Shown here: positions 8,443 to 31,654 of the stretch, piece by piece | Position numbering within the stretch: the stretch's first letter is position 1 | Layout: the number at the start of each line of letters is the position of its first letter | Source: a virus | Direction: 5' to 3' (one strand) | DNA: 40,042 nt | IMG/VR virus record: IMGVR_UViG_3300033148_006006 | Location: 1-40,042 of that record | The notes under the pieces: generated by a model | Told to the model about the DNA's origin: nothing | The model's database searches: none | What the model saw: the letters and a program-made list of their open reading frames with translations, nothing else | Program-made: the position numbers and the translations under genes

Positions 8443-8446
8443 TTTG

Positions 8447-8947: not shown

Positions 8948-8958
8948 TTTAAACTCCT

Positions 8959-10806: not shown

Positions 10807-10816
10807 TATTTACCTC

Positions 10817-12556
10817 CTACCATGCCGCTGGAATAGTGCCTATTCGATATTGAAAAAAGACTCCAACCAACCATCCCTTCTCCTCCATATCATCAACTCC
10901 ATTTACATTCCTGCTAAATTTAAAATGGATTAGGTCTCCAGAGGCAGGAGTACCCGCAACAGTCAATGCTGGTGTAGCCGCCGTGATATGCATATCCCCA
11001 TTCTTACCAGCAGTTACAGTATCAGATACAACTTGGCTAACTCCGGAGGCTACATCAATAGGATCATCATCAGATATAGCTTCTGCTGTTACTGCCCATT
11101 CAACCGTATCCCCCGCAGTACAAGAGCTTGCTCCAGGGGTCCAATAAAACTTAAACTTAATTGTCGAAAGATCCCACTGAGCATCTAACACTCGACTATA
11201 TTCAATATACTGTCTGGTCACCCCATCGAATGAATAATAATCAAGATTGACATCATTTGTCGCATACTCATGAGTACCAGCAGTTGCAAAATCCGTAGCT
11301 GTCGGGGTCATTACATTAGCAGGAACATAAATCGTCCTATATCCTGTAGTAAGATCCCCATGTTGAGCATTTGTTAAATGGTAATATTGATCAGCCTCTC
11401 CCCCTTGCAGATTTGCTAATCCATTGTGATCTACAACTCCAGAAGCTTCAAATCCCTCCTTCCAATAGTCAGAAACTTCTTTAAAAGCAGCAACGTCCTT
11501 CTCAACAATTATTCTACCTACCGCAGCTCCCATAAGAGATACTTTAGCCGGTAAACTTGAAGGGAGAGTTGTCACTTGAGCTTCTGCTAATTTATATTTA
11601 TCTTGTCCATATACTACATGGACATCTTCATCCTCATGAATATAAACAAAATGGACTCCATATTTATCTGAAGAAGTTAAATTTGCAAGACCAGAAGCTG
11701 TATTGTTATACTGAGTAATACTCACTTCAGTGACCCCAGTTGTTTCTACCCAAGCAGAACCGTCATAATACCAAGTCGAAAATGGAGACATAGCAGAATC
11801 AAAAGAGTCTACATTAAATTCATTTAACCCCTTAAAAAATGTTCCGGCCGTAATTGTAATAGTTTGATTCCCCCCATCACCAAGAACAAGACCTGTCCCT
11901 CTCGCAAAACCGTCTACTTTTCCCAATCTATGATGAATTTTACGTGCCAAATTATAAGCATCAGTTCCCCCAGTAAGCATATGCAATTCACTTCCATCTT
12001 TATAAACTTTACCAAGTCGAAGTTCCGTTGTATGATTTATATCTGAATCTGTCGTGGTTGATGTCACACCAGAAGTAGTTACGTAGATATAATTCATAGA
12101 AGCATCAACCAAAGGCACAAGAGTTTCTGACCAAGAAAAGAAAAGAGTATCTCCTATTTCACTATCAGTATCTTTAATAAATCCTTGACCAGCCGAAACT
12201 GTAACCCCACTGGCTCCAGCATCCGTAAGTTCTCCTCCAGAAAGGATCCCTGCAGATTGCGTTGTATTCAACCAATCTTGAACATCGTCGTAAGCAGGAG
12301 AACCAACAGTATTTAATTTTACTTCTCCTCCCTCTATAGTTCCATCAAGATCAGGATCAAATATAATAAAATAATCATATAAAGCATTTGCGGATGGGGT
12401 CTTGTTTGTAATATTATCCCAATATTCAGGAGCAGTATTAATTACATTTCCAACTCCCAAAAGACCCAAATCTTCACCAAACTGTCCAGCATGGATTTGT
12501 AAGGGAAGGAGCCCTAACAAAAAACCCAAAACTAAAATCAAAAAAGTCTTTTTCAC
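10817..12556 (-). CDS. Secreted fibre-like protein with signal peptide
   Basis: 579 residues from a GTG at 12556, chosen because AAAGGAGG lies 8 bases before it; a GTG three codons earlier overlaps that site. The mature start follows MKKTFLILVLGFLLGLLPLQIHA, a clear signal peptide. Residues about 60-390 resemble phage neck or fibre proteins (GGELTDAGASGVTVSAGQGFI, HHRLGKVDGFARG, then LANLQGGEADQYYHLTNAQH, a common tail-fibre phrase). The C-terminal 150 residues are beta-rich. It is the middle of three secreted genes in a row. Possible roles: fibre that reaches the cell surface, or a receptor-masking lectin. Confidence 0.72.
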   Translation of the reverse strand: MKKTFLILVLGFLLGLLPLQIHAGQFGEDLGLLGVGNVINTAPEYWDNITNKTPSANALYDYFIIFDPDLDGTIEGGEVKLNTVGSPAYDDVQDWLNTTQSAGILSGGELTDAGASGVTVSAGQGFIKDTDSEIGDTLFFSWSETLVPLVDASMNYIYVTTSGVTSTTTDSDINHTTELRLGKVYKDGSELHMLTGGTDAYNLARKIHHRLGKVDGFARGTGLVLGDGGNQTITITAGTFFKGLNEFNVDSFDSAMSPFSTWYYDGSAWVETTGVTEVSITQYNNTASGLANLTSSDKYGVHFVYIHEDEDVHVVYGQDKYKLAEAQVTTLPSSLPAKVSLMGAAVGRIIVEKDVAAFKEVSDYWKEGFEASGVVDHNGLANLQGGEADQYYHLTNAQHGDLTTGYRTIYVPANVMTPTATDFATAGTHEYATNDVNLDYYSFDGVTRQYIEYSRVLDAQWDLSTIKFKFYWTPGASSCTAGDTVEWAVTAEAISDDDPIDVASGVSQVVSDTVTAGKNGDMHITAATPALTVAGTPASGDLIHFKFSRNVNGVDDMEEKGWLVGVFFQYRIGTIPAAW

Positions 12557-12574
12557 CTTCTCCACCTCCTTTCC

Positions 12575-12958
12575 TTACTTTTTCATTCGACCTAATCGAA
12601 CAATAACAGAACCAGAAGTATAATCCCCATTCTTAACCCCAATTCGGTATCTTACTCCTACTTCTGGATCAACTAAAGCTCTCCGAATATTCGAGGTCCA
12701 AGTATAATCAACGTCACTATATGTTACACCCGCATCGGTTGAACATTGGAGAGTAACGGTTGCTACCCAAGTACCAGAAATAGTAATGCTTAAAAATCCT
12801 CCTCTTGCTTTAAGAGCAGGAGCAATACCATCAGTCCAGGTTCCTGCCGCAGGTGGAGCACTACTAATTGTGGCAGTCACATAATCAGCCGCCTGTGCTA
12901 TTGAAAGAAAAGCAAATAGCACAAAAGCAGCAAGTTCTATCCTTAACAATTTTTTCAT
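12575..12958 (-). CDS. Small secreted beta protein
   Basis: 127 residues from an ATG at 12958, chosen because the GGGGGG ribosome site is 6 bases before it; an ATG two codons earlier touches that site. MKKLLRIELAAFVLFAFLSIAQA is a signal peptide. The mature part is a small all-beta domain (GGFLSITISGTWVATVTLQC, VRYRIGVKNGDYTSGSVIVRLG), resembling phage proteins that bind 'sequence of measurements'-type decoration sites. Similar small domains occur in phage structural regions without signal peptides. It is the first of the three secreted genes after the connector. Confidence 0.65.
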   Translation of the reverse strand: MKKLLRIELAAFVLFAFLSIAQAADYVTATISSAPPAAGTWTDGIAPALKARGGFLSITISGTWVATVTLQCSTDAGVTYSDVDYTWTSNIRRALVDPEVGVRYRIGVKNGDYTSGSVIVRLGRMKK

Positions 12959-12975
12959 TTTCATCCCCCCTTTTT

Positions 12976-13341
12976 TTAGTCTAAATCTAAATCAAGAGCA
13001 ATAAATTCCGCTGCTCTTTTACCAAGAGCCGCCAATATCCCCGAAGTGTCCAGGAGCTTAACCTGTTGTCCGTAAGAAGTGAAATCAAGGCCCATATCTG
13101 TTTTACCCTGATATTTAATTAAACTCTCTCCTGTCTTTTCTGATTGTGGCATCTGATCTCTGATAGCGACGAAGTGGGCCGAGAGCCATCGTTCTATTTC
13201 TTTCATCAAGGCGGAACTCAAACCTGCCGAACCTAACTTATCAGTAACAATTAAATTAGCAGCTGTTATAAAAGCAGAGATATCAGAGATATCAGTATCA
13301 ATGATTTCCTTAACCTCGGTTGAATTAACGCGGTCGGGCAT
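12976..13341 (-). CDS. Head-tail connector (adaptor) protein
   Basis: 121 residues, all-helical, starting MPDRVNSTEVKEIIDTDISD and containing ITAANLIVTDKLGSAGLSSALMKEIERWLSAHFVAIRD. This is the plan of HK97 gp6/DUF4054-type adaptors that form a ring under the portal. A GGAGG site precedes the ATG. It follows the sulfotransferase by 15 bases and so marks the return from the carbohydrate cassette to virion genes. Confidence 0.78.
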   Translation of the reverse strand: MPDRVNSTEVKEIIDTDISDISAFITAANLIVTDKLGSAGLSSALMKEIERWLSAHFVAIRDQMPQSEKTGESLIKYQGKTDMGLDFTSYGQQVKLLDTSGILAALGKRAAEFIALDLDLD

Positions 13342-13356
13342 TAGCTAATCCTCCTA

Positions 13357-14115
13357 TTATATAGCACTGCTTTTACTACCATCTCGTTTGCCCCTATTCC
13401 AAAGGTTGGGATCTACAAAGGCTTTTGCTTTTTCAAGATCCCATTCTAAATCAAGACTGTTAATCACATTTTGCATTTCAGAAAAATCTCCATTCATCAT
13501 ACGTTGTGGCCATACTTCCCTTATATCTAATTTCTGTTCATACATTTCTTCAAATCTTCTTTCATGTACAGAAACCCAATTAAGCCAACCAGAACGCGTT
13601 TGAAAAGCTCTCATAAAAGAAGTTCTTAAACAAGATCTGACAATATCTTCAACATCCCTTCTAACAATTATCCACTTAGCTTCAGGAAAAAGAAGATGCC
13701 ACAAAGGCCACATCAAACACATTTTTGCCCCCTTGTAAAAAAACCTTTGCCCATTATATCCTTGACTTTTCAAGATTTCTTCAAGGTCATGCATCCATAT
13801 AGCGGCTAAATGAGTATTGACAGATACAAAACGATCGCCATTACCAAAGCCTATAAGAATTGCATCATTGCCTTGGAGTTGTCTTCGTATTCTTGGAAGA
13901 GGCTTTTGCCCCATTGGATCACAGCCTGCATCTTTCAAAAAAGGCTTAACAAGATCGTTTCTGATTTGTGTATTTTCAAACATTCCTCTTCTGTTAAATC
14001 TTGTCGGACCAGCTAAATCTCCTCCCCATGCCCCACTCATATTCACAATACCAGCAACCAGGGAAGTTCCGGATCGTGCCGCGCCAGTAATCAATATCGG
14101 ATTAAAAATTTTCAT
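13357..14115 (-). CDS. Sulfotransferase-family protein
   Basis: 252 residues with the PAPS-binding signature: a P-loop-like ITGAARSGTSLVAG (9-22) for the 5'-phosphosulfate, and WIIVRRDVEDIVRSCLRTS (about 148-166), with Arg152/Arg153 and Ser161, for the 3'-phosphate. Enzymes of this fold move sulfate from PAPS to sugar or other hydroxyl groups. It begins one base after the GT4-GT8-like gene and is the last gene of the carbohydrate cassette, just before the connector. Likely acceptor: a glycan built by the neighbouring enzymes. No PAPS synthase is in the window, so PAPS would come from the host. Confidence 0.8.
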   Translation of the reverse strand: MKIFNPILITGAARSGTSLVAGIVNMSGAWGGDLAGPTRFNRRGMFENTQIRNDLVKPFLKDAGCDPMGQKPLPRIRRQLQGNDAILIGFGNGDRFVSVNTHLAAIWMHDLEEILKSQGYNGQRFFYKGAKMCLMWPLWHLLFPEAKWIIVRRDVEDIVRSCLRTSFMRAFQTRSGWLNWVSVHERRFEEMYEQKLDIREVWPQRMMNGDFSEMQNVINSLDLEWDLEKAKAFVDPNLWNRGKRDGSKSSAI

Positions 14116-14116
14116 A

Positions 14117-15751
14117 TTATCTCCAATGTCTTTTTACCCACTTCCTTCTGACTCTGTCCAATGACGGATTTCCATGAAAGCAAACAATTCTTGCTCCTCC
14201 AGGTAACTTTTGCCGACAATCTCTTTTGTAAGAGAAAATACCCTGGATTAATTTTTGAAGAGGTTGATAAGTTTTATTCTCTTGAGATAGTGCTCTTGAA
14301 ATATATTCTTGATCTCCACTAAAAGATTGTTCTTCTATCTCCTGAAATATAAACTTATCATAAATAAAAGAATAATCTCCATTTCTCCAGCCCATTATAC
14401 CAGATGCAAGGTGGCGATTTATTCTACTCGTAATATTCCAAGGTTGTAAGGCAACAAAATTAAGAGGGATTAAAAATAAATCATCAATATTTCTGAGAAT
14501 GATAGTATCAAGATCAAAGTAAATTATATTTTTCGTATCAACTAACCCTTCCCTAAAAAGTTCTATTTTAGACCACCAACCTGGCAAATCATCTTTCAAC
14601 TTTATTGTTCTACAGCCATCAACATTATCAAAATCAGTAAGACAAACAAAATCAAAAGAAGTAGTTACATTTCGCTCAAGCGTATTCTTTAATTTCAATA
14701 CCCACTCTTTTGTAAAAATACCTCCGGATTTTAAAACACACATAACAGTAACATCTTCAGGAACACCACTCCGTCTGGATTTAGCGGCTTTCATCTTGCT
14801 CAAAAGTTGCTTCAAAGCAACAGGAGATTGTTCAGAACATTCTAAAAATATTTTTCGATATTCTTTAGCAATTACTTTTATATCATGATGTTCTTCAGCA
14901 AACTTACGTCCTCCCAAAGAAATCTTCTTAAAAAGAACCTTATCATTTTTTAGTTCTTCTAATTGGGATATAAGAAACTTTTTAAACTTTCTGCAAAACA
15001 AAACGTTCTCCCTATGCACCATCTTCTCTCCATGGTATCCTGCTTCCTTTGTTATTATAACAGGTATCCCACAAGCGAGAGCTTCCATAACAGCATTACT
15101 ACATCCTTCTCCATCTGTTAATAAAACAAGAACATCGATCTTATCATAAAACTTTTCCTGCATTTGTTTATAAGGAATCTGATTATCCTTATAGAGAGCT
15201 GTATACAAAGGATAACCTAAAACGGAACAAGCCTTTTGTATAATTCCATATCCTTTATATTTGCTTTTTTGTAAGGTCTGAACATTACCCACAAACCCCA
15301 CCTTTAAAACAGATTCCTCAACTTTTCTTTCTTTAAATTTCCATTCCTCCAGATTTAGCCCATTAGGAATTAGATGAACTTTTTTATGAACCTGTCTTGC
15401 TATTCCTGCCAGCTTTTCATTAGTGGCAATAACAGCAAAGCACTTAGACATCTGCCTTAAATACTTTTCAACTCGAATTGGAGATTGATCTTCAAAAGAA
15501 AGGTTGCCTCCTAAACGACATATGACTTTTCTATAATCTTTTAGGTCTTGAAGCTGCGCAACATTCTGACTTAGAAAGTAGGAATCTCCATCAGCTTTTA
15601 TTTCTTCAGTTTTCATATTTCTCTTTCTCCATAATTTGTAATCCACCGATACAATTTTAAAATCCGATCTTAATTCTTTCAAAAGAGCTTGACAAATATT
15701 TCCCCAGCTCCACTTCTCATGTTCAAATTCTAAACTGATTATTGTTTTCAA
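14117..15751 (-). CDS. Fused glycosyltransferase: GT4-type plus GT8-like domain
   Basis: 544 residues in two parts. Residues 1-310 are a GT-B (GT4) enzyme: [19 protein letters not shown], and [20 protein letters not shown] (213-232), which contains the donor-binding E-x7-E-like region. Residues 330-544 are a GT-A domain with a DLD metal motif (413-415) in [19 protein letters not shown], as in GT8-type enzymes. It starts at a TTG overlapping the previous stop (TTGA). A two-headed enzyme could add two successive sugars. The fold classes are clear; donors and acceptors are unknown. Confidence 0.85.
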
Positions 15752-16617
15752 TGGTTCTTTACCTTTGCTGGAACCCCATATGCAACCGAGTTATCAGGAA
15801 TATCGTGCATTACCACAGAGCCCATTCCTATTGTACAATTCTTTCCTATTTTAATTCCGTTTAGAATAGAAACAGAAGGAGCAATCCAACTATAGTCTCC
15901 AATGGAACATGAACCTCCAAGCATAACATTAGCAACAATAAAACAATGCTTCCCGATTTTTACATTATGGGCAATATGAACAAGATTATCTATTTTGGTT
16001 CCTTCTCCAATAACTGTGTCCCCTAAAGCCCCACGATCTATACAAACATGAGAATGAATTTCAACATTATCTTCAATAATCACTCTTCCTATCTGTGGAA
16101 AATTAATCAATCTTCCTTTGTTGTCTCTGCGATTTGCAACGCTGATAGTACCCACAATAGTATAAGGCCCAACCATTACTCTCTTTCCTATAACAACACA
16201 GTCCATAATAACAGCAGTTGGATGAATACCATCGTTCCTCCCAGGATAATAATGTTTAACAACATTCATAAAAGCTACCCGTGGATTTTCCACAAAGATA
16301 AAAGTTTTTTCTTTATAAAACACGCTTCCCATCATATAATCTGGTAAAATTATTACTCCTGCTTCCGATTCTCTAATCCTTTTCCAGATTATCTCTTTAT
16401 CTTGATCACTTGGTTTTACTCCATACCCATTATCTAATATATCCAAAGGAGCGCGAGCAAAATTTCCCATCCTTGGGTCGTCACAAAACGAAAGCGAATT
16501 GTTTGTGGCTTCATCCAGCGGAGAAAATTTCTCGATTGATATCCCTGCCCCCGGATTAGTCACAGAATAAGGACCCTTTATTAATTGGCAAATATCGCCA
16601 AGTTCTATTCTATCCAT
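15748..16617 (-). CDS. LpxD-like hexapeptide-repeat N-acyltransferase
   Basis: 289 residues. The N-terminal 120 resemble the uridine-binding part of LpxD. Residues about 130-285 are a left-handed beta-helix with [54 protein letters not shown]. The [10 protein letters not shown] block (His214, His217) holds the catalytic histidine region of LpxD. LpxD moves an acyl chain to the free amine of a glucosamine. It overlaps the PIG-L deacetylase gene by 13 bases; that enzyme could expose such an amine. It may be a sugar N-acyltransferase of O-antigen type rather than true lipid A LpxD. Confidence 0.82.
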
Positions 16618-17201
16618 CGTTTTATGATATACCCCTCTGCATATGATTCTCCCATCATTTGCCCCCTTGTAACCGCTATTGCTTCTATATAATCTGGAGA
16701 ACGATGTCTCCTTACCTGGGAACCATATAAATAGTAAGCTTTAAGTTTTCGATTTATATCAATCTTAACAAGATGGTTTATTTCATAAGGAGCACAACCC
16801 CAATTACAATCAGTCGATTCGCACATAAGAACTTTCTTTACAAAATGATTTTTATCATGGGGTCTAAGAGCTATCATACAAGCCTTATAAATAGCTTGAT
16901 GATCCTGGTTGTAAGAAGGATAAGGAATAAAAATCTTGTCCGGTCTTCCCTCATTGATTATATCTTGAAGAAGATCTATATAATTCTGCCCTCTATAATA
17001 ATTCACTTTATCAATAGTCAGCATCTGCCAAGTAAAACCTAAATAATCAGCAACAGATTTTAGCTCCTCATATCTTTCTACGGCAGGCAGAATATGATAT
17101 TCTTGCATTCCGCAAAAGACAACATGAAAGTCTTTATTCAAAATACCTCCACAACCTAAAACTTCATCATCAACATGCGGAGCTATCACCAAATTCTTCA
17201 T
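16605..17201 (-). CDS. PIG-L-family N-deacetylase
   Basis: 198 residues with the diagnostic zinc/catalytic motif [13 protein letters not shown] (7-19) and a later YNQDHQAIY carrying the third zinc-ligand histidine. Family members remove acetyl from N-acetylglucosamine on lipids, thiols or nucleotide sugars (PIG-L, MshB, BshB, LmbE). GAGAGAGG precedes the ATG. It lies between the UDP-sugar dehydratase-type SDR and the LpxD-like acyltransferase, suggesting a remove-acetyl-then-reacylate sequence on an amino sugar. Confidence 0.88.
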
Positions 17202-17213
17202 TACAAGCCTCTC

Positions 17214-18230
17214 TCACTCAGGTAAAAGATTATACTTCTTTAACAAGTCTTTCGTTTCCTGAAAGTCAATAAGAACATTAGCAGAATTATACTCTCCCGT
17301 TAGAATGTTTTTCTCCTCATTATCAGTATTGGAAAGTTCTGGCAACATTGGAGCAATTACATAATAATCTCCTCTTTTCAAAACCCGTATATACTCATCT
17401 TCAGAAATTATAATCTCATGAACTTTTTCTCCGGGCCGTATCCCAGTTATTTTAATCTCACATTCCTTCGAGCCAATCATTGCCCTGGCAACATCAATCA
17501 TTTTAAATGAAATAAGTATAGGAATATAAACCTCTCCAGATAAGCCCTCTCTTATAGCTGCATATACAATATCAACCGCTTGATCCATAGTAAACATGAA
17601 ACGAGTCATTTCTAAAGATGTAACAGTAACAGGCCCCCCTTCTTTGATTTGTTGTTGAAAAATAGGAATTACAGAACCAACAGAAAGTTTGGATATAATA
17701 TTCCCATACCTAACACAGATAAAACGAGTACCAGGATTTGCGATGTTTGCCACAATAGCCATGCGCTCTTGAATTGCTTTTGTCATACCCATAACATTCA
17801 CGGGCTTACATGCTTTATCTGTACTAATAATAATAACCGTCTCAACGGGATAGTCATTTTCATTAATAGCTCGAATTATATTTTGAACTCCCATACAATT
17901 AGTTAATACCGCCTGCTCTGGAAAATATTCACAGACAGGAACTTGTTTCAATGCTGCTGTATTAATAATGATGTCGACATTTTTTATGACAGAACAAACA
18001 CTGGCATAATTACGAATGTCTCCAATTACAAATTCAAGCCGGTCAGAGGCAGGCGCTATATCATGATAGTATTCTGTTCTCATATAATGTTGTTTTGCCT
18101 CGTCTCTCGAAAAGACGACAACCTTTTTAGGCATTCCTTCTTCTCCAGACAATACACGTTTCACGAGTACCTTGCCAAGGGAACCTGTCCCGCCTGTAAC
18201 TAAAACTATTTTGTCTTTGAATATTTCCAT
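17214..18230 (-). CDS. UDP-N-acetylhexosamine 4,6-dehydratase-type SDR (PseB/CapE/WbjB-like)
   Basis: 338 residues of an extended SDR: NAD(P)-binding TGGTGSLG (12-19), FSRDEAKQHYMR, ISTDKACKPVNVMGMTK (136-151) in which Met147 stands where ordinary SDRs have Tyr and Lys151 is kept, VRYGNIISKLSVGSVIPIF, TRFMFTMDQAVD and IRPGEKVHEI. These are marks of the polysaccharide-synthesis dehydratases that act on UDP-GlcNAc, some also inverting C5. It probably begins a deoxy-amino-sugar pathway; no aminotransferase or reductase partner is visible, so later steps may use host enzymes or the radical SAM protein beside it. Confidence 0.85.
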   Translation of the reverse strand: MEIFKDKIVLVTGGTGSLGKVLVKRVLSGEEGMPKKVVVFSRDEAKQHYMRTEYYHDIAPASDRLEFVIGDIRNYASVCSVIKNVDIIINTAALKQVPVCEYFPEQAVLTNCMGVQNIIRAINENDYPVETVIIISTDKACKPVNVMGMTKAIQERMAIVANIANPGTRFICVRYGNIISKLSVGSVIPIFQQQIKEGGPVTVTSLEMTRFMFTMDQAVDIVYAAIREGLSGEVYIPILISFKMIDVARAMIGSKECEIKITGIRPGEKVHEIIISEDEYIRVLKRGDYYVIAPMLPELSNTDNEEKNILTGEYNSANVLIDFQETKDLLKKYNLLPE

Positions 18231-18242
18231 GGTTATTCTCTC

Positions 18243-19211
18243 CTACAAAAAATTCTTGTGTTCAAAAAACGAAAACTCTTCCGTTCCCATCACCCTTCTA
18301 TACGCATGAAGGTAATTTGTATAACGGCACATTGGACATTTTGTTATATCCGGTTGAAGATTTTTTCTTTTCTTCCACAAATCCAAAAACGGAGCATCTT
18401 GTAAAAAGCCCAACTGAAAATAAGGATTCCCTCGATGTTGACAACAAAAATAAACGCTCCCATCAGCATTAACTATTCCAACATATCCTGCAATTTGACA
18501 AGAAGAATGATCTCTTGCTTTCTGCCTCCTCATTAAAATTACATTCTCTTGTCCTAAAACATCTTCGTAACCATTGAAAATATCTCCATCTATCCAAGCT
18601 GGTTTAATCTGTAAATAATTAACTCCAAAATCCTTTGCTAATTGAGGCATCTTTTCAACCTCTTTTTTATTCTGTTCACAAACTACAAACGATAAACCAA
18701 TAACTGTCTTATCAGAACCCTTCGTCCTAATAACAGCCCTGTCAACATTAGCTAAAACTTCATAAAACATTGGTTTTCCTTTTATCTTTTTATAAGTTTC
18801 TGCTGTTGCGGCATCCAAAGATATCCTTATAAAATAAAAAGAGTCTAAACAATTAACTCGATCTAACAAGACGCCATTAGTAATTAAACCAATTTGAAAT
18901 CCCATATCACAGGCAAGCTTTACCATATCATTAAAACGAGGATTCAAAAGAGGTTCTCCGCCTCCTGTAAACGTAATAGATTTCGTTCCTCCCTGTTTAA
19001 GTTCCTGTATTAAATTGCAATAGATATCCCAATCTAAATCTACCTGACAATCTTTCAGCCTATCTTTAAACAAACAAAAAGAACAGGACAACATGCACCT
19101 ATTTGAAGGATCGATTTCACAGGTTATGGGAAACACAAACTTCCCGTCCAAAAGATCTTCAAAATCTTTTAGGTGATATAAAACTTTCTTATCTGTACTA
19201 TTTAGTTCCAC
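18243..19211 (-). CDS. Radical SAM / SPASM-domain enzyme
   Basis: 322 residues. The CxxxCxxC cluster motif is at Cys39, Cys43, Cys46 (NRCMLSCSFC), followed by FTGGGEPLLNP (SAM binding) and a TIM-barrel pattern. The C-terminal part has SPASM-type cysteines (SSCQIAGYVGIVNADGSVYFCC and KCPMCRY), which bind further Fe-S clusters. GTG start, sharing one base with the previous stop. Such enzymes modify peptides, sugars or other small molecules by radical chemistry; here the setting favours sugar modification. Oxygen sensitivity hints at an anaerobic or low-oxygen host (inference). Confidence 0.88.
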   Translation of the reverse strand: MELNSTDKKVLYHLKDFEDLLDGKFVFPITCEIDPSNRCMLSCSFCLFKDRLKDCQVDLDWDIYCNLIQELKQGGTKSITFTGGGEPLLNPRFNDMVKLACDMGFQIGLITNGVLLDRVNCLDSFYFIRISLDAATAETYKKIKGKPMFYEVLANVDRAVIRTKGSDKTVIGLSFVVCEQNKKEVEKMPQLAKDFGVNYLQIKPAWIDGDIFNGYEDVLGQENVILMRRQKARDHSSCQIAGYVGIVNADGSVYFCCQHRGNPYFQLGFLQDAPFLDLWKKRKNLQPDITKCPMCRYTNYLHAYRRVMGTEEFSFFEHKNFL

Positions 19212-19951
19212 TACAATCCTCTCTCCTTCAAAATATTTCTCATATCAAAGTTGGTTCGATATTCCTTAGTCATTTCCCGAGCTCTCTTCTTTCTTTCTTT
19301 TGGATGAGACAAATAAAAATCAACCAATCCATCATAAGATTCAATACTGTTAAATTGGGGCACAACAATCGGACAATAAACTTCTTCACTAATAAAGAAC
19401 TGTTCATTTGCAAGAAAGTAAGCCGTCCGAGTCCATTCTGTAATCGTTACTCCATCACTGAAATGAAGGTTCAAATTTATTCTTGCTCGCGAGATATTTT
19501 CACCCCGGAGTTTATCCTCATGAGAATTCAGAATAGCCCATTTATTTCTAACCTTATTTCTCCAATCTTCTCTCCTTCCTCTATGCCAACCCATAAACCC
19601 AACATCGACATCTTCTGGCAAAAAGGATTCAAAAAGTAAACAAGGATGATATCCAAGAGGAGTATATTTTTCTCTTTCGTTTTCAATATCAAACCCCCAA
19701 ATCTCATCAGGGCCAAAACAATAAAAGGATTCTACCTGAGCGGCCTTATTTTTATATCCTTCTGTTTGTAACAAAATGTATTTCTTATCCGAATACTTCT
19801 TATCTATTTCAAAGAAATTTCTTATCCCAATCACAATCTCTGCTTTAGAATGTTCAACCAGTTTATGTCCTAAATCCATTAAAGACTTTTCCATAATATT
19901 ATTTGTAATACGAGCCGAAGCACTTTTAAATTTAAGTAAACAAATTTTCAT
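19211..19951 (-). CDS. Glycosyltransferase, GT-B single-domain type
   Basis: 246 residues. The segment DVDVGFMGWHRGRREDWRNKVRN ... SRARINLNLHFSDG ... TRTAYFLANEQFFISEE matches a family of short GT-B-like transferases, where 'NLHYYE' and 'R.SYLLAN' are conserved. TAATG overlap with the methyltransferase stop implies coupled translation. It likely adds one sugar in the same glycan. Shorter than a full GT4, so it is either a compact member or acts with a partner. Confidence 0.65.
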   Translation of the reverse strand: MKICLLKFKSASARITNNIMEKSLMDLGHKLVEHSKAEIVIGIRNFFEIDKKYSDKKYILLQTEGYKNKAAQVESFYCFGPDEIWGFDIENEREKYTPLGYHPCLLFESFLPEDVDVGFMGWHRGRREDWRNKVRNKWAILNSHEDKLRGENISRARINLNLHFSDGVTITEWTRTAYFLANEQFFISEEVYCPIVVPQFNSIESYDGLVDFYLSHPKERKKRAREMTKEYRTNFDMRNILKERGL

Positions 19952-20733
19952 TAGTAAGCCTTTCTAAAAACACTTCGAAGATTTCTTTTAGTTCCTATGT
20001 TATTCATATTAACAACTTCATTCTTCAACAACGACCATCGGGCATCAAATAAATTAAATAAGACTTCTTTCCTTGGAAAGCTACTAAAATGGGCTGATTT
20101 ATTAGGATTAGCATCTGACTCTAATGGAATTTCAATATAGAGAATACCTTCCTTCATCAAAGCGTTATAGATATTATGAACCACAATTTGTGGATTAGAA
20201 CAATGCTCCAAAACATGAATCGCAGTAATAGTTCCAAACAGATTTTGAAATGGCATTTTTTGCACATCCATTTTTGTGCATCTTAACCCCTTAGCCTTTA
20301 CCTGATCAACTCCCTCTTGACAGATCTCTATGGCCTGGACATCTTTATATCCTGCTTTTATCAAGAACTCTAAAAACCATCCTTCTCGTGTACCAATATC
20401 TAAAAGAGGAAGATCTTTATTCACACAATCTGTAAAGTACATAAAGGCATTCAACAACCGAACAAAATTGCCTTCGTTCATAACAATACCGTCTTCTACT
20501 CTTCGTTGTAATCCTTCTTTTGTATGAATGATATTGACTTTTATATCATTCAATCCCTGAAATTTCTTCTCCCTTTCTACTCTTTCTATTTTTTTCAATT
20601 TCGATTTTATAGAACTTTCCAATACCTTCAGCCTTTTCCACTTTTCACTCCCCTCTAATTTTTTGACTTCTTCTTTCAACCGTTTCTGGACAGTTTTTAA
20701 TTCTTCTAATTTTGATTCTTTTTCACTCATCAT
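19951..20733 (-). CDS. Class I SAM methyltransferase with N-terminal coiled coil
   Basis: 260 residues. Residues 1-58 are almost entirely charged heptads (KLEELKTVQKRLKEEVKKLE), a coiled coil. The methyltransferase fold follows: LLDIGTREGWFLEFL (110-124) binds SAM, then VQAIEICQEGVD, MDVQKMPF and ITAIHVLEHC. This is the type found in polysaccharide clusters, where it methylates sugars or caps chains; a coiled coil can set chain length in some caps (e.g. the WbdD principle). Overlaps the GT-D gene by 11 bases. Confidence 0.82.
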   Translation of the reverse strand: MMSEKESKLEELKTVQKRLKEEVKKLEGSEKWKRLKVLESSIKSKLKKIERVEREKKFQGLNDIKVNIIHTKEGLQRRVEDGIVMNEGNFVRLLNAFMYFTDCVNKDLPLLDIGTREGWFLEFLIKAGYKDVQAIEICQEGVDQVKAKGLRCTKMDVQKMPFQNLFGTITAIHVLEHCSNPQIVVHNIYNALMKEGILYIEIPLESDANPNKSAHFSSFPRKEVLFNLFDARWSLLKNEVVNMNNIGTKRNLRSVFRKAY

Positions 20734-21451
20734 TTATTCCCCGTAAATATCCACGTTTTATTTTGTATGCATCCTGATAACTCCACTTCTCCGGATGGGG
20801 TTCTTTCTTAAACAAACTATATTCAAAAGCAATCGCTCCCATATCGAGAGCTTGTTCTCCTTCAAGACATATATCATAAGCAAGACAAGTAGCTACCGGC
20901 CCCGCCGAAAGAATAAATATTTTATTTTCTCCAAAGAATTGATAACAGGCATACAAGATTTGTTCATAATTCGAAAAACAATTCCTCGGAGAGATTTCCA
21001 CAAACTCACAAATACTATCTCTAAATAAAAAATGATTAGGAAGATCGGGTTTGGAATTAACAAGAACGACCTCTCTATCTTTCCAAATATTTTTTATCTT
21101 ATCAAAATATTCTTCAGAGTCTAAATTGACTAAACTTGGACGCGAGAAAAAAGCTGAAACAAAAACACTTTCTTCTTTCGCAGCCTTGTCTAAAATAAAT
21201 TTGTCGAATTTTTTATGAAAACCTTCAACATAGGACCTTGTGCAAAGAGGATCGGGTATTCCTATAAGTAATTTTTCTAAAGGTTTTTCAAATACCTTCA
21301 AAAGTCCTTGTTCTAATCCTACATCATATACCTGCATATTTGTTATAGATGAGCCCCGCATTATTTTAAATTCTCCATCACCATAACGAGCCATGGAATA
21401 ACCTTGTTTAAATTTCTCAAGTATAAATTCTTCTTCCCTATAAACTTCCAT
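20723..21451 (-). CDS. GT-D fold glycosyltransferase (DUF1792-like)
   Basis: 242 residues with SMARYGDGEFKIM (19-31) near the N-terminus, the DGE motif of the GT-D fold that coordinates the metal and nucleotide sugar. The later KIFILSAGPVATCLAYDI and QALDMGAIAFEY are also typical. GT-D enzymes were first described in glycosylation of bacterial serine-rich adhesins (DUF1792, glucosyltransferase). Overlaps the stop of the GT2-GT4 gene by 14 bases. Confidence 0.75.
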   Translation of the reverse strand: MEVYREEEFILEKFKQGYSMARYGDGEFKIMRGSSITNMQVYDVGLEQGLLKVFEKPLEKLLIGIPDPLCTRSYVEGFHKKFDKFILDKAAKEESVFVSAFFSRPSLVNLDSEEYFDKIKNIWKDREVVLVNSKPDLPNHFLFRDSICEFVEISPRNCFSNYEQILYACYQFFGENKIFILSAGPVATCLAYDICLEGEQALDMGAIAFEYSLFKKEPHPEKWSYQDAYKIKRGYLRGINDE

Positions 21452-23384
21452 ACTTTATATTCTCCATCATCGTCAAATACTTTTGAGCGACATATTCAAT
21501 TGATAGTTGTTCTGGTAATTCTACTCGAATTTTATTCTGTATAATACTAACCATTGCTTCTACAAAACTTTCTTCTGTCTTCTTTGACATTTCATTATAA
21601 GAATCTCGATAGATGTAATCTGGTTTAAAATCTTGTTCCCCTTCATAGACAATCTTACACCCTTCTACAAGCTCGCACATCTCCGTTGCCCCTCCACAAA
21701 GATTAGTGGTGACAACAGGTATTCCAGCAGCTATTGATTCAGGAACATTACTTGGGCAAGAATCTTTTTTACATAAATGCAAGGCTATATCTCCAGTTCG
21801 ATATATTTCTTTAATTTTTTCTAATGATTGAGATCCATAATAAATGACATTCTCAGAGGAGATTTTCTTTCCTCCTCTGGCCATTTCCCCTATTATATGA
21901 AGCTTTGCTTCAGGATAAACTCTTCGAAATGCTTCAAATATTTTAATCATCTCAGGCAATCTTTTTATCCTACGCCACTTAGAACAGGAAACAACATTAA
22001 TTCCCTCATGATCGGCTGGATTATACCAATTTGATTTATCAACCCCATTATGTATTATTTGATGATAATTTGTTTTCCTTTCAAGAAGATACCTTTCACA
22101 CATTGATCGAGAGCAATCGCTTTGATACACAATGGCTTCTACAAAAGAATGTGACTGACTAATGCCCTCATTTTTTATTCTATAGTCCAAATCTTTGTCG
22201 TAATAAATTCCATCCAATCGTAATAGTGTTGGCAAATTAGATTTGGTAGATTTTCTTGCTGTAGAAAATTGGACATTAGCCTCCGTTGGATGAGCGACTA
22301 AAACAGCCCCTTGGGATCTCCAGTAAGAAAACATTCTTCTTATCGCATTTCTTCTTGACCCATCAATAAATATACATAAATTAGTTTCTTTCTGTTTAGC
22401 CCTTCTCTTCAAAGTACTATTAAATATTTGATGTCGAGCATTTATAATTTTTTGCTTTTCTTTCTTACTTGCTCGATGATAAGCGGCATTCATAGAACCT
22501 GTATGCTTTCGATATAATAATAGAGGCTTGTCTATGTAAATGAGTTTTCCTACTTCCTCTAATTTTAAAACCAAATCTTTATCTACTGTCTTTTTAAGAG
22601 CAGAGTTTATGCCTTCTGTCAAATCATAAAATTTTCGTTTTAATACTTTTAGATGACTGATTGGCAAATTTGTTCTAAGGACTTCTTCTGTTTTTGGAGA
22701 ACGATCTAACCAATCTTCTCCCTCCTCGATTTGTCTTGACTTTGTTTGAAGGGGTTTTCCTTTTTTATCTATCTTCATTTTCAAATCATCGTGGCAAACT
22801 ATAAAATTACTATATGTCATTGAAGCTTCTGGATGGTTTTGATGAGTGTTAATACACGTCTGAAAAACTGTATTAGTATATAAAGCATCATCTGAATCAA
22901 GGATAACGACCAAGTCATTTGTAGCAGCCATAATTGACTCTCCTAAACTTGCTCCATAACCTTTATTCTGATCATGCTTAATTACATTAACCTTTTTTTC
23001 TATTCCATATTTAACAATACATTCTTCAATAACCTGAAGAGATCCATCAGTAGAATTGTCTTCTACTATAATTAATTCCCAATTCTTATGAGTTTGCTTA
23101 ACAACACTCTTGATTGCCGCCTTGATATATCGCTCATGATTATAGTTAGTCATTGCTATACTTATTGGAATATCTTCGATCTCTTTTTCTTTTATTCTTG
23201 GAATCTTTTTTCTTGGATTTCTTTTCCTTTGAACAGATTTTTCTTCTGGATAATTAAATTGATCAATAGATAAAGCGATGGTAATTTCTCCCATCTCATT
23301 GATCAAATGTTCATCCTTTTCCATTTCTTGCATGAGAACTTCGGCAACTAAATTATTTTTTTCAATAAACCAACCTATTTTCAT
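21438..23384 (-). CDS. Fused glycosyltransferase: GT2 plus GT4
   Basis: 648 residues. Residues about 72-290 form a GT2 domain: AMTNYNHERYIKAAIKSV, VEDNSTDGS (107-115) and the DSD metal motif at 163-165. Residues about 335-640 form a GT4 domain: LRLDGIYYD, IIHNGVDKSNW, VVSCSKWRRIKRLPEMI and VPESIAAGIPVVTTNLCGG. The ATG follows ATAAGGATTTCGCT. It is the first large enzyme of the cassette and, like the gene at 14117-15751, joins a GT-A and a GT-B domain in one chain, in the opposite order. Confidence 0.87.
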   Translation of the reverse strand: MKIGWFIEKNNLVAEVLMQEMEKDEHLINEMGEITIALSIDQFNYPEEKSVQRKRNPRKKIPRIKEKEIEDIPISIAMTNYNHERYIKAAIKSVVKQTHKNWELIIVEDNSTDGSLQVIEECIVKYGIEKKVNVIKHDQNKGYGASLGESIMAATNDLVVILDSDDALYTNTVFQTCINTHQNHPEASMTYSNFIVCHDDLKMKIDKKGKPLQTKSRQIEEGEDWLDRSPKTEEVLRTNLPISHLKVLKRKFYDLTEGINSALKKTVDKDLVLKLEEVGKLIYIDKPLLLYRKHTGSMNAAYHRASKKEKQKIINARHQIFNSTLKRRAKQKETNLCIFIDGSRRNAIRRMFSYWRSQGAVLVAHPTEANVQFSTARKSTKSNLPTLLRLDGIYYDKDLDYRIKNEGISQSHSFVEAIVYQSDCSRSMCERYLLERKTNYHQIIHNGVDKSNWYNPADHEGINVVSCSKWRRIKRLPEMIKIFEAFRRVYPEAKLHIIGEMARGGKKISSENVIYYGSQSLEKIKEIYRTGDIALHLCKKDSCPSNVPESIAAGIPVVTTNLCGGATEMCELVEGCKIVYEGEQDFKPDYIYRDSYNEMSKKTEESFVEAMVSIIQNKIRVELPEQLSIEYVAQKYLTMMENIKYGSL

Positions 23385-23467
23385 AGCGAAATCCTTATGA
23401 AATACTGTCTACAATCAATCTTCTCCGCATAATCTATATCAGTATATAGGTTTTTAAAAAGAAACTG

Positions 23468-23690
23468 TTATTTTGGATGTTTTTTTCTTACAAATCCAAG
23501 CATTTTCAATGTTATTTTACCATTTGGTCTAACTGCAATAGCTTTAAATTGAGCCACTTGCCCATTCATTTCTCACGGATACTCTGTTCCCTTGTTTCAA
23601 TCGAAAGTTTTTAAGCTGTTCTTCCTTACCTTCTGGAATCATTGTAGCAATTTGTTTTGGTTCATGCTTATGTTGAGACATTGCTTGCAT
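23468..23690 (-). pseudogene. Small basic protein gene split by a frameshift
   Basis: An ORF starts at ATG 23690 (AGAGGAGG just upstream) and reads 48 codons to TAA at 23544. A second 33-codon ORF starts at ATG 23569 and stops at 23468. Removing one base near 23570 (in GAGAAATG) joins them into one smooth protein of about 73 residues: ...LKQGNRVSVR then MNGQVAQFKAIAVRPNGKIT. It could be a broken gene, two overlapping genes, a +1 frameshift gene, or a sequence error. The protein family is unknown. It overlaps the DUF115 gene end by 23 bases. Confidence 0.5.
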
Positions 23691-24330
23691 GGATAGCCTC
23701 CTCTAATGTCGTAATTGGAAAAACATCAATTAAGCTCCCGGGAGTCGCGTTAATGATCTCAAGCCCTAACTCCTCGGCGTCTTTAGCAATCGATGGAAAA
23801 CATTTTAAGAAATTATCATAAGGATCTTTCTTGGGATATGGATGGTCGCTGTGCCAGTTGGCTTCATCGTCTACCCGTTGCATATCATACCCGATCAATA
23901 CAACTCTCTTAGCCCCAAAATGATATGCAAGATTTATTGCACTTGACCCACTACATTTATTCCAGGAAACTACTCCGGGATTCTTTTCTATTCCCATTGG
24001 TTTCCCTCTAAGCAAACGTTTAAGCCAACCAACATATTTTAGACGATTGACACAGTGGACTTTCAAACCAGCAAAATTAAGAAGTTTCTCTTTATGCCAA
24101 TCGAACCATCTTGAATCGGTAAACCAACACACATCTACCCAAGATCCTAATTGATAGGCATTATTAATACCTATCACCCTCTCATTTTTTATCAGACTTA
24201 GATTTACCTTTTTTAGAGACGGACCTCCGCCTACGAGGAACACGGTTCTTCCCGGCCAAATCTTTGGGACTTTCCACTTTGGTGGATTCATCCTTCTTTG
24301 TTTCCTTATCATTTTTTGGTTCCGGGCCAT
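23668..24330 (-). CDS. DUF115 / MptE-like Rossmann protein
   Basis: 220 residues. The core starts with IWPGRTVFLVGGGPSLKKV (24-42), the glycine-rich loop of the DUF115 group (related to Maf flagellin glycosyltransferases and MptE), then VIGINNAYQLG, CWFTDSRWFDWH, SGSSAINLAYHFGAKRVVLIGYDM. Phages often carry such a gene beside head genes. It may bind a nucleotide sugar and act with the transferases that follow. The chosen ATG makes a 149-base overlap with the acidic gene; another ATG at 24288 would still overlap by 107. Confidence 0.75.
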   Translation of the reverse strand: MARNQKMIRKQRRMNPPKWKVPKIWPGRTVFLVGGGPSLKKVNLSLIKNERVIGINNAYQLGSWVDVCWFTDSRWFDWHKEKLLNFAGLKVHCVNRLKYVGWLKRLLRGKPMGIEKNPGVVSWNKCSGSSAINLAYHFGAKRVVLIGYDMQRVDDEANWHSDHPYPKKDPYDNFLKCFPSIAKDAEELGLEIINATPGSLIDVFPITTLEEAIHASNVST

Positions 24331-24802
24331 CTTCTACAGTCTCCTCGTCTTCCTTTTGTTCTTGATTTTCTTTATCTCCCTGCATATTCTCTTCGTCAAG
24401 ATTAGGAGTCTCTTCCTTCTCTTCTTTATTACGAAGGTTAAAAAGCAATTTGCCAAGCACAGAATCTTTCCCCGGTTCAATTCCTTCCTCTGCTTTAGCA
24501 ACATCAGAGATAAGAGATTCCGCCTCTTTCTTTGTCAGAAGTTCATCATTGATAAACTCTTTTGTTGCCTCATTAAAAACATTGTACTTCCCTCCCCCTT
24601 GATGCTGAAGAGTTAATCCAACTGAAGGAATCTGGTCTTCAGGATCTGGGGGCGGCGGGCCTACAAGCTCGAACTTATCTTTAAATGCAACAACCTCTTG
24701 AGAAGTCAATTCAACTTCGTCTCCAGGAACGAGCTTCTTCATCACGCCCTCAACCTTTTTACGATGAGGGCCGCATCCTCTTTTTAATCTATATAAAGCC
24801 AT
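24182..24802 (-). CDS. Acidic then basic low-complexity protein of the head region
   Basis: 206 residues. Residues 1-60 form a small domain (MALYRLKRGCGPHRKKVEGV...VPGDEVELTSQE) also met in phage head regions. Residues 100-175 are very acidic and rich in Glu, Lys and Asp; the last 30 are strongly basic (RVPRRRRSVSKKGKSKS). It follows the major capsid gene by 39 bases, with GGGAGG before the ATG. Its end is out-of-frame with, and 149 bases inside, the DUF115 gene. Function unknown; a capsid- or DNA-associated accessory protein is possible. Confidence 0.65.
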   Translation of the reverse strand: MALYRLKRGCGPHRKKVEGVMKKLVPGDEVELTSQEVVAFKDKFELVGPPPPDPEDQIPSVGLTLQHQGGGKYNVFNEATKEFINDELLTKKEAESLISDVAKAEEGIEPGKDSVLGKLLFNLRNKEEKEETPNLDEENMQGDKENQEQKEDEETVEDGPEPKNDKETKKDESTKVESPKDLAGKNRVPRRRRSVSKKGKSKSDKK

Positions 24803-24841
24803 AAGATAAAACCTCCCTTATGGTTAAAGGGTTTTCGTTGT

Positions 24842-25813
24842 TTAGGTATAGTGTACAATACCGGACCTGTTATTCTGGTCATTACGGATCTGAGGAACCA
24901 TGATCATCATAACCTTAAAATTGGCTTGCATCCCACCTTCAGAATCCCATTGTACTGTGGTAATAGCCAGACCATTAACAAGCCTGACAACATCAGTAGT
25001 CATTTGCACCAGAACCACATTATCGGAACTCAAGAAGTCTGCAACTTTGATATCGGACAACCCTGCAATTTCAAGTAGCCTTGTCCGAATGGACTTATCG
25101 GAATTGGCTTTGAAATCATCATCAATTGCCGACTCAAAATTTGTGGGAATATAAAGTATCCAGGGTCCGAAATGATATGCATCTATGGAAGCCTGCTTCA
25201 TGGCAAGAACATCAGCCAGAATGGTTGCTCCGGAGGCGGCACTGTCATCCCAATTAGCAGTCAAGCTGCCGGTATTCCTTTGAGGAGCATCCTGATAACC
25301 ATAAATGGTCCCTCCACCAAACTTGTAGGAACTTGAGCCTTGGAATAAAATTGTTTCAGCTTTCTCAATTACCTTTCTTGCCGCCAACTCTGACGTGGTG
25401 GTATCCAAAGGCATACTACCATCTCTGCTCTGTTGAATTTCCCTAACTGAGTAAGAAAAATCATAATGAATAATTGGCAGAGGGATATAGTTAATATCAA
25501 ATTCCGGCCGATCTCTTTGACCTCTGGTAATACCATCCATACTCATGGATGCATCTTCAAGATCAGACGAATCCTGCCATGCCAAAACCGTCTTTGCCAG
25601 ACCATTTGGAATGTCATATGTCAGTCCACGACTCTGAAGATCGCCAATACCAAGCAGTCTTTGCGTTGCCGCTTTTAAAACCGCCTTATCAATAACCTTC
25701 CATTCGTCATAGAGCAAGACATCATTTGTTCTTAAAGCGTTGATGTTGAAATTGGACTGTAGCAATTTCATTGCCACATCACCAACAGCCTTTCCTTTAT
25801 AAATAAGATCCAT
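24842..25813 (-). CDS. Major capsid protein, encapsulin-like HK97 fold
   Basis: 323 residues. The row DVLLYDEWKVIDKAVLKAA ... IGDLQSRGLTYDIPNGLAKTVL ... SMSMDGITRGQRDRPEFDINYIPLPIIHYDFSYSVREI ... LDTTTSELAARKVIEKAE is the consensus of the phage capsid family most like encapsulins (linocin M18). It forms the head shell. It follows the cement gene; both are preceded by an identical 41-bp leader with an AAGGAGGT ribosome site. No N-terminal delta domain is visible, fitting a separate scaffold made from the protease gene. Confidence 0.9.
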   Translation of the reverse strand: MDLIYKGKAVGDVAMKLLQSNFNINALRTNDVLLYDEWKVIDKAVLKAATQRLLGIGDLQSRGLTYDIPNGLAKTVLAWQDSSDLEDASMSMDGITRGQRDRPEFDINYIPLPIIHYDFSYSVREIQQSRDGSMPLDTTTSELAARKVIEKAETILFQGSSSYKFGGGTIYGYQDAPQRNTGSLTANWDDSAASGATILADVLAMKQASIDAYHFGPWILYIPTNFESAIDDDFKANSDKSIRTRLLEIAGLSDIKVADFLSSDNVVLVQMTTDVVRLVNGLAITTVQWDSEGGMQANFKVMMIMVPQIRNDQNNRSGIVHYT

Positions 25814-25815
25814 AC

Positions 25816-25856
25816 TAAGTTACCTCCTTCATTTAAATTTTATTGTGTTAAAAAGT
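25816..25856 (-). repeat. 41-bp direct repeat, copy 2 (leader of the capsid gene)
   Basis: Identical over 41 bases to 26321-26361. It carries the AAGGAGGT ribosome site of the major capsid gene and an AT-rich stretch before it. The same leader precedes the cement gene, so the two most abundant head proteins share one translation signal. Confidence 0.9.
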
Positions 25857-25864
25857 GAACTTGT

Positions 25865-26317
25865 TTACATGACCTCGATTTTAATCCTGGCAGCAGCAGA
25901 TATTGCCGAGGCTGAAAGATCCAAAGCTTCAAGGGCTTTACCGATGATACTATTTGGATATTCAACAGCTCCAGCAGAACTGGATGCATATACTTGGAGA
26001 GTTCCATCTCCCGCTGACTCCAGATAGCTTTCAATAACCGCTGTTTCTCCATCTGCCAGCCAGGCATAAATCTCGTCTCCTTGCCGTGCAGCAACAAACT
26101 GACCGCGATCGCCATCAGAATAATCATCTCCAATTTCGTCTCCTTGAAGAGCGTTCTCAATCGCAAACAATTTAGAAGCTGTTTTTCCCGCATCCGAATG
26201 AACCACCGCCTCTCCGTCGGTATTCAGTTTGCAAAGATGGCCTGGAGTAATTGTCCCTCCGCATTCATATTCCTTCCGCAGAGGATCTCCTTTTAACAAA
26301 ATCGTTTTACTTGCCAT
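25865..26317 (-). CDS. Capsid cement / head decoration protein (DUF2190-like)
   Basis: 150 residues, mostly beta: KGDPLRKEYECGGTITPGHLCKLNTDGEAVVHSDAGKTASKLFAIENALQGDEIGDDYSDGDRGQFVAARQGDEIYAWL, then AIIGKALEAL-like end. This is the plan of the DUF2190-type capsid stabilising proteins (lambda D-like role) encoded between scaffold and major capsid genes. Small trimers of these proteins bind the outside of the expanded head. AAGGAGGT lies ahead of the ATG inside the 41-bp repeat. Confidence 0.82.
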   Translation of the reverse strand: MASKTILLKGDPLRKEYECGGTITPGHLCKLNTDGEAVVHSDAGKTASKLFAIENALQGDEIGDDYSDGDRGQFVAARQGDEIYAWLADGETAVIESYLESAGDGTLQVYASSSAGAVEYPNSIIGKALEALDLSASAISAAARIKIEVM

Positions 26318-31601: not shown

Positions 31602-31654
31602 TCGATTTCCTCCTTTAGTTCTTCCAATTCTTTTTTTAGTTCTTGAAAAGTCAT
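31598..31654 (-). CDS. 18-residue micro-ORF
   Basis: ATG behind GGAAGGTGATAAA, reading MTFQELKKELEELKEEIE, a perfect short amphipathic helix, with the TGA overlapping the next ATG. Good ribosome site and coupling favour translation; product too short to classify. Its last codons contain AAAGGAGG for the next gene. Confidence 0.4.
   Translation of the reverse strand: MTFQELKKELEELKEEIE

Follow-up and report, generated by a model that had tools for sequence, protein, structure and literature searches.

The 40,042-base virus record IMGVR_UViG_3300033148_006006 from IMG/VR, which we analysed as a whole and refer to as the window, carries a cassette of eleven consecutive genes (13357-24330, minus strand), most of them matching glycosyltransferase, tailoring-enzyme or sulfotransferase families, between the genes for the major capsid protein (MCP; 24842..25813) and a head-tail connector-like protein (12976..13341). 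We interpret this cassette as a soluble (cytosolic) protein-glycosylation locus, its enzymes adding sugars to the phage's own particle as the head is built, a reading to which we assign a probability of about 0.72. The most informative fact, beyond the single sequence on which a preliminary description of this DNA was based, is that the ends of the locus are constant and its middle is exchanged across the phage lineage. That description had listed eleven consecutive open reading frames (ORFs) between capsid and connector, and all eleven were recovered at the predicted positions and on the minus strand. Its proposal that they act on capsid or fibre proteins, or else on host envelope sugars, holds in part: this is a late-region glycan block tied to head genes and most likely acting on the virion, whereas the host-envelope option is disfavoured.

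The lineage was opened by searching IMG/VR with an alignment of five capsid proteins, and the best 80 of 162 capsid relatives were used (L002 as the whole record, G001). Together with the window and the phages StAshley and MaInes, the set came to 83 capsid loci, which group at 90% capsid identity into 56 clusters, 38 of them closed, i.e. spanning capsid to connector, and 18 open-ended. Counts take one representative per cluster, which hides variation within clusters (e.g. L021 versus L026), and the ORFs of relatives were called by a length and homology rule favouring the plus strand. Such a block, which the preliminary description had suggested seeking in related phages, was found in 34 of the 38 closed clusters. 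In all 34, a homologue of the first cassette gene ('DUF115') is the first gene past one or more genes of the type of hd206, the small head-region gene that follows the capsid gene. A sulfotransferase is present in 30 of the 34 and is the last gene before the connector in 29 of these, a 64-residue ORF lying past it in the thirtieth (L069); connector-like homologues come after the cassette across the lineage. The same end-gene result was obtained with a rebuilt, uncontaminated DUF115 hidden Markov model (HMM). A second 'DUF115' in the penultimate genes of L056, L061, L063 and others had come from an HMM contaminated by the L068 fusion and was removed by the clean one, with which L034 has two true copies. 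Among the 18 open clusters, 11 have DUF115 first, two end too early and five are distant capsids without DUF115. A cassette is missing from four closed clusters (StAshley/MaInes, L052, L084 and L085); StAshley presents an empty site, with capsid, hd206-like (a weak match, E 0.002 over 42 residues) and connector-like genes adjacent. In the capsid tree, 43 cassette rows and two unknowns fall on one branch with support of 84/73, which is under the star level; near the base of this branch the tree does not resolve the positions of StAshley, L052, and L034 and L081, the last two of which carry cassettes.

Gene retention was compared by reciprocal best matches (at least 30% identity and 60% coverage) for ordered pairs drawn from the 34 closed clusters that carry a cassette, a set chosen for having DUF115, with sulfotransferase pairs counted where both loci carry one. 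At 60-80% capsid identity, DUF115 was kept in 110/112 comparisons and the sulfotransferase in 98/98, whereas interior genes were kept in 126/491 and other structural genes in 667/980. The corresponding values, in the same order, were 454/470, 386/408, 158/2183 and 2368/3921 at 50-60% capsid identity and 367/455, 264/335, 49/2299 and 1535/3568 at 40-50%. Pairwise identity of the capsid protein is followed by that of DUF115 (Spearman 0.80, 561 pairs) and of the sulfotransferase (0.66, 435 pairs), and in neither case did any of 500 label permutations reach so high a value. The window's group and L080, with 85% capsid identity, have DUF115 proteins 75% and sulfotransferases 78% identical and nothing in common among their ten and three interior genes, and L021 and L026, members of one 90% cluster (L026 being open-ended), have 94.8% capsid and 89% DUF115 identity and one of eight interior genes in common; at 97.9% capsid identity (L021 and L045) all eight are shared. 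Since divergence of the end genes keeps pace with that of the capsid gene and the interior is swapped between phages, the particle glycan probably differs from phage to phage. The median cassette length is 5.8 kb (range about 1 to 11.8 kb), the GC content of cassettes is below that of the flanks in 31/34 (one tie, two higher), and 189 of 214 same-strand internal junctions overlap or have a gap of at most 10 nt. The preliminary description had named relatives carrying these genes as unrelated passengers, with no conserved order, as the result that would speak against it; the interior is indeed little conserved, whereas the ends are conserved.

The closest relative, G001 (an 89-kb IMG/VR record), has the same cassette at 96.7-100% protein identity, but with twelve genes; the extra one, absent from the window cassette, is an ORF that resembles NUMOD3 homing endonucleases and separates the GT2-GT4 gene from the GT-D gene (66430-67266 of G001, equivalent to L007:6430-7266). 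Homing endonucleases in cassettes are a possible driver of the interior exchange. Between the window and G001, a single record pair compared by Nei-Gojobori counts, the ratio of non-synonymous to synonymous substitution rates (dN/dS) is 0-0.27 for all eleven cassette genes, compared with 0.02 for the capsid protein. With such ratios the cassette genes look maintained and, since the block also recurs in 34 of the 38 related clusters, it appears to go beyond chance.

The first cassette gene (23668..24330) encodes a 220-residue protein for which we keep the name DUF115 given in the preliminary description, searches with the window protein having returned phrog_4603 and MptE-like instead. By VIA-align its AlphaFold2 (AF2) model, with a predicted local distance difference test score (pLDDT) of 94, has the Maf/CstII fold: the best match in the PDB is Maf (5mu5; Z 15.2 over 193 residues, root-mean-square deviation 4.1, 13% identity), and the sialyltransferases CstI and CstII gave Z values of 10.4-12.5. 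Maf is a soluble transferase that acts on a self-assembling structural protein, modifying Ser/Thr. The window protein scored 28.5 bits against PF01973, under the gathering cut-off of 34.6, and among 36 homologues at E 0.01 PF01973 matched 29 and CST-I one. In L044 DUF115 is fused to a GT2-GT4-like protein and in L068 to glycosyltransferase domains, and L058 and L072 likewise have lengthened DUF115 proteins; our alignment contains the window and 35 of 44 homologues, fused or cut copies being left out. We propose this protein as the initiating transferase.

The DUF115 gene overlaps by 149 nt the upstream gene hd206 (24182..24802), and in all 42 clusters in which both genes were called they overlap or lie at most 10 nt apart. 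The hd206 protein (206 residues), assigned a head role from its position, is a candidate acceptor or docking partner and consists of an N-module, followed at about residues 62-105 by a C-terminal module, and a tail modelled with low confidence, the pLDDT values being 90-97 over both modules in the AF2 block. Structural comparison gave weak matches only (best Z 5.3; YqbF 4.1). The C-terminal module occurs in 41 of 43 scored cassette clusters and in none of the four cassette-negative closed clusters (Fisher 8e-5, a value that ignores shared ancestry and the seeding of the HMM, which was by regular expression on genes past the capsid). Two of the 45 cassette clusters, L027 and L081, had no separate gene called, the module of L027 lying in an overlapping ORF, and the L084 ORF is possibly in the wrong frame. 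In several cassette phages (L070, L073, L075 and L079) the hd206-type gene is tandemly duplicated ahead of DUF115.

Running from DUF115 towards the connector, the remaining ten genes encode a two-domain GT2 + GT4 glycosyltransferase (21438..23384; PF00535, PF00534), a GT-D fold glycosyltransferase (20723..21451; PF08759, 4e-32), an S-adenosylmethionine (SAM) methyltransferase (19951..20733; PF13489), a protein that the preliminary description called 'GT-B' (19211..19951), a radical SAM/SPASM enzyme (18243..19211; PF04055, PF13186; motif CMLSCSFC), a UDP-GlcNAc 4,6-dehydratase-like short-chain dehydrogenase/reductase (SDR; 17214..18230; PF02719, 2e-83), a PIG-L/LmbE deacetylase (16605..17201; PF02585, 8e-12; phrog_11796), an LpxD-like hexapeptide acyltransferase (15748..16617; Hexapep, LpxD), a two-domain GT4 + GT8-like glycosyltransferase (14117..15751; PF13692; phrog_1962 glycosyltransferase over residues 335-544, 'GT8' being the earlier name) and the sulfotransferase (13357..14115; PF13469, 9e-8), the proposed capping enzyme. 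The enzyme families previously named were thus all matched except for 'GT-B', a label that is unverified because 19211-19951 had no Pfam, PHROG or NCBIfam match at E 0.01; it has relatives in the L019 and L044 cassettes. Typical motifs are present in the cassette proteins (GAARSGTS with RR..S; HVDDE; CxxxCxxC; DSDD; TDKA with MxxxK). Subfamily scores were under their cut-offs for the acyltransferase (187 bits against TIGR01853, cut-off 242.5) and for the SDR (284 bits against PseB, cut-off 408, and likewise FnlA under its NCBI cut-off), and the sulfotransferase scored 33 bits against PF13469, above its cut-off of 27. Residues G11, R14-S15-G16 and R152-R153...S161, invariant in 30 aligned sulfotransferase rows, are those we take to bind 3'-phosphoadenosine 5'-phosphosulfate (PAPS). 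The sulfotransferase query gave no match in the phages collection, and single-protein queries with GT-D and radical SAM against viral contigs returned the near-identical G001 as their sole match. Six of the ten internal junctions overlap by 1-14 nt, as had been stated for most of them, but the cassette is not strictly one translation unit, since three junctions have gaps of 1-12 nt and a 283-nt gap lies past DUF115 (23385..23667). A stretch of about 90 nt at the GT2-GT4 end of this gap (23387-23476) has an 89% identical copy at another place in G001 (22560-22649), at the end of a large gene (22641-26066) that looks like a replicative polymerase.

Outside the window, 210 non-redundant interior ORFs include 32 matches to GT2, 13 to radical SAM and 13 to PF02719, along with methyltransferases, other sugar SDRs, GT-D, GT11, GT47, GT92 and transketolase, as well as four NUMOD3 and four GIY-YIG homing-endonuclease matches (families taken from the commonest 25 of 79 and of 70). 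Among 219 interior ORFs at least 120 residues long, two have a single membrane (hydrophobic) segment and none has more, whereas the same count applied as a positive control to the E. coli K-12 O-antigen locus gave five for the polymerase wbbH and seven for the flippase rfbX. The polyprenol-phosphate initiating transferase family Bac_transf was found in none of 41 records picked from cassette loci (many of them fragments, with the window's record represented by G001), and its control was positive in 9 of 14 genomes. With no multi-span protein and no lipid-carrier initiator, the cassette loci show no evident means of moving a glycan across a membrane.

As far as we know, few phages have been shown to glycosylate their virions with enzymes of their own. 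In mycobacteriophage Corndog an O-methyltransferase and glycosyltransferases (gp35-38) lie between portal and protease, and the authors of PMC4351075 suggest capsid modification; glycosylated proteins have been identified in Corndog (Freeman 2023, as cited in PMC12363180). As in the virion glycosylation of Corndog, Che8 and Myrna, the present glycosyltransferases and methyltransferase lie within or next to virion structural genes. Unlike Corndog, with four genes, the locus has eleven (twelve in G001), including SDR, deacetylase, acyltransferase, radical SAM and sulfotransferase, and across the lineage its first gene is Maf-like, its ends are fixed and its interior can be exchanged. It resembles flagellar glycosylation islands with their Maf flagellin glycosyltransferases in the fold of DUF115, which differs in being just 220 residues long and 13% identical. 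Bacterial O-antigen and capsule loci have conserved ends and a variable interior. The cassette is like them in its fixed ends, its variable glycosyltransferase and tailoring genes and its GC content below the flanks, but sits in a phage head block and has no multi-span membrane protein or lipid-carrier initiator that we could find. Viral glycan gene clusters are also found in Megavirinae, where 6-33 genes make clade-specific particle glycans of the fibrils, in eukaryotic giant viruses with unrelated particle proteins (PMC10117803).

DUF115 homologues (26-38% identity) among late genes with glycosyltransferases nearby also occur in S20/SI1, in phage P1 (pmgO) and around gp126 of Caulobacter phage CcrColossus, in the latter two among late or tail genes, and the records concerned do not describe these genes as virion glycosylation loci. 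In S20 (a Tetraselmis viridis virus) the genes lying between capsid and head closure include two DUF115 homologues, GT-D, GT2 and two methyltransferases, but the S20 capsid is of another family (PF05065) and no sulfotransferase was seen at the end of its block. An alignment of the window GT-D with its S20 homologue retrieved 44 IMG/VR loci; of the 43 besides G001, 34 carry a DUF115 homologue, or 32 of 41 after removal of L097 and L098, which belong to the capsid lineage (near-copies retained). The variable islands of cryoconite phages contain glycosyltransferases (six hits) and homing endonucleases (38 hits), and the part of PMC7468147 consulted mentions no fixed-end glycan locus in head genes. 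In the literature covered, which mostly leaves out subscription journals and so leaves novelty unproven, we found no description of a glycan locus with fixed ends and a variable middle in phage head genes.

A virion target is favoured by the missing multi-span and lipid-carrier proteins, the Maf-like first gene, the adjacency and module of hd206, the DUF115 fusions and the precedent of other phages. In the mechanism we propose, the Maf-like DUF115 would put the first sugar on a head protein, as its fold and position suggest. The interior glycosyltransferases, with the SDR, PIG-L, acyltransferase, methyltransferase and radical SAM enzymes, would then extend and vary the chain in the cytosol, their families being assigned and their products predicted. 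The terminal sulfotransferase would cap the chain with sulfate from host PAPS, a reaction predicted from its family and motif, and the exchanged interior would probably give each phage its own particle glycan. By analogy, the cassette is organised like an O-antigen locus or a flagellin-glycosylation locus, here located in the head operon of a phage. More tentatively, and at somewhat less than even odds in our estimate, it may be a phage 'serotype locus', in which a constant Maf-like initiator and a usually constant sulfating cap would flank glycosyltransferase and tailoring genes swapped by recombination, the sulfated glycan coat would differ between related particles, even where their capsids are 95% identical, and an acceptor or adaptor module on a head protein would come and go with the locus.

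Several observations weigh against particle glycosylation. The fold of DUF115 is common to proteins that are not glycosyltransferases, and since HPPK/MptE (Z 10.8), SteA (10.3) and thiamin pyrophosphokinase (9.6) are its nearest matches outside the glycosyltransferases, the fold alone does not fix the function; the sole Pfam match of DUF115 is MptE-like, and Foldseek of the model against the PDB gave no match at E 1e-3. In the hd206 alignment (38 rows, the window and 37 of 42 relatives, with L034, L038, L055, L062 and L074 left out) there is no conserved Ser/Thr acceptor, and the near-invariant Asn85 (37/38 rows) is followed by Asp in the window and so has no N-X-S/T context there; for these reasons hd206 may dock the enzyme instead of accepting the sugar. 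L034 and L040 have cassettes but no hd206 module, four of the 34 closed cassettes (L020, L040, L072 and L081) have no sulfotransferase, and in L021 and L022, members of the L045 cluster, a 231-residue ORF separates sulfotransferase and connector. The associations of end genes and hd206 module with the cassette are phylogenetically non-independent, and the starred branches of the capsid tree force at least three changes of cassette label. Maf and CstII use CMP-nonulosonates, yet NeuB was found in none of the 41 cassette records and the CMP-sugar synthetase family CTP_transf_3 in one, so that either the host supplies the DUF115 donor or the donor is a different one. Sugar donors and PAPS would come largely from the host, genes for adenosine 5'-phosphosulfate and PAPS synthesis having been outside the search. 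With the sugar aminotransferase family DegT in two of the 41 records, these counts led us to reject a phage-encoded nonulosonate (pseudaminic acid) pathway starting from the PseB-like SDR, and they do not support the earlier view of the cassette as a near-complete pathway.

Should the acceptor be a neighbouring fibre-like protein (8959-12565) or the tail tube in place of a head protein, the same enzymes would serve tail or fibre glycosylation, which we consider unlikely. The fibre-like genes lie directly downstream of the cassette, and mycobacteriophage glycans are reported on both capsid and tail tube (PMC12619734, citing Freeman 2023). However, such genes are not at this site in other cassette phages such as L018 and L030, which have c111 after the connector gene, and it is the hd206 module that tracks the cassette, tail-protein modules not having been put to the same test.

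Less probable still is modification of the host envelope (O-antigen, capsule or teichoic-type polymers) blocking adsorption of other phages. Phage glycosyltransferases that change host serotype, named in PMC12619734, are established, the interior families are also those of polysaccharide loci, and host flippases could in principle be borrowed. Against this, neither multi-span proteins nor Bac_transf, the marks of a Wzx/Wzy locus, were found within the DNA examined, and the cassette has a fixed linkage to capsid, hd206 and connector genes. A prophage role is also unsupported, a scan of genome contigs for prophage relatives having given six matches, at 24-29% identity, none of them from the lineage.

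DNA hypermodification, in which the enzymes would glycosylate modified phage bases, seems to us very improbable. Virus glycosyltransferases that hypermodify DNA have been reported (Pyle 2024, as referenced in PMC12619734), and G001 does carry a 7-deazaguanine gene set (30126-38005, L005: QueC, GTP cyclohydrolase I, PTPS/QueD and a QueE-like radical SAM enzyme), which suggests base modification of its DNA; by our guess its 30126-31073 gene, without a Pfam match, is DpdA-like. However, these genes are at least 25 kb from the cassette, which lies inside the head block and whose end genes track the capsid gene. In addition, we know of no DNA substrate of Maf/CstII-like enzymes and of no sulfated DNA sugar. 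We give equally little credence to neutral cargo, i.e. sugar genes without joint function gathering at an insertion hotspot between hd206 and connector, for although the interior is poorly conserved and holds homing-endonuclease motifs, and phage KpV2811 has unrelated genes near the same place, the ends are fixed, the internal junctions are tight, the window and G001 differ at low dN/dS and the commonest interior families are glycan or methyl-transfer enzymes.

In KpV2811 (L017), a distant relative, the genes in question (7425-10397) are RusA, EndoVII, a methylase and a ParB-like gene, on the opposite strand between a small post-capsid virion gene and later head genes, and because of them the region past the capsid may take up inserted genes in general. 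Read towards lower coordinates, the minus strand of the window carries small and large terminase, portal, MuF-like, protease/scaffold-like, decoration protein, MCP and hd206 genes, the cassette, the 121-residue connector-like protein, three genes with signal-like N-termini, more connector genes, major tail protein and tape measure. The MCP (phrog_771/DUF6260) shares 41% identity with the protein annotated as MCP in Brevundimonas phage StAshley, and the connector-like protein, named by position, is 34% identical to the StAshley protein adjoining its capsid genes; the portal and large terminase names also rest on StAshley homology, and the small terminase and tape measure are presumptive names, given partly by position. 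The three tandem signal-like genes (8959-12964; 129, 582 and 615 residues) lie between two connector genes and have no counterparts at the corresponding site in StAshley or L018. The 582-residue protein matches tail-fibre phrog_5668, and the 615-residue protein is 57% identical to its G001 copy (dN/dS 0.45), neighbouring genes compared being 94-100% identical. The tape-measure-like protein (3806-6190) is 62% identical to that of G001, most other late genes compared being above 94%. A scan of 12500-26000 found 34 promoter-like sites against 45 in shuffles and nine terminators against seven.

In this uncultivated lineage, particle glycosylation appears to take up as much as 11 kb of the head block, and the organisation of the locus implies selection for glycan diversity on the particle. 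Loci of this kind may be found simply by looking for a Maf-like gene next to a head gene and a sulfotransferase at the far end, and the cassettes are a stock of testable glycan enzymes. If our interpretation is true, the locus would be a viral counterpart of O-antigen or flagellar antigenic variation, and capsids would come in antigen-like types, of consequence to anything that recognises free phages, such as predators, surfaces, mucus, capsid-sensing host defences and antibodies in therapy.

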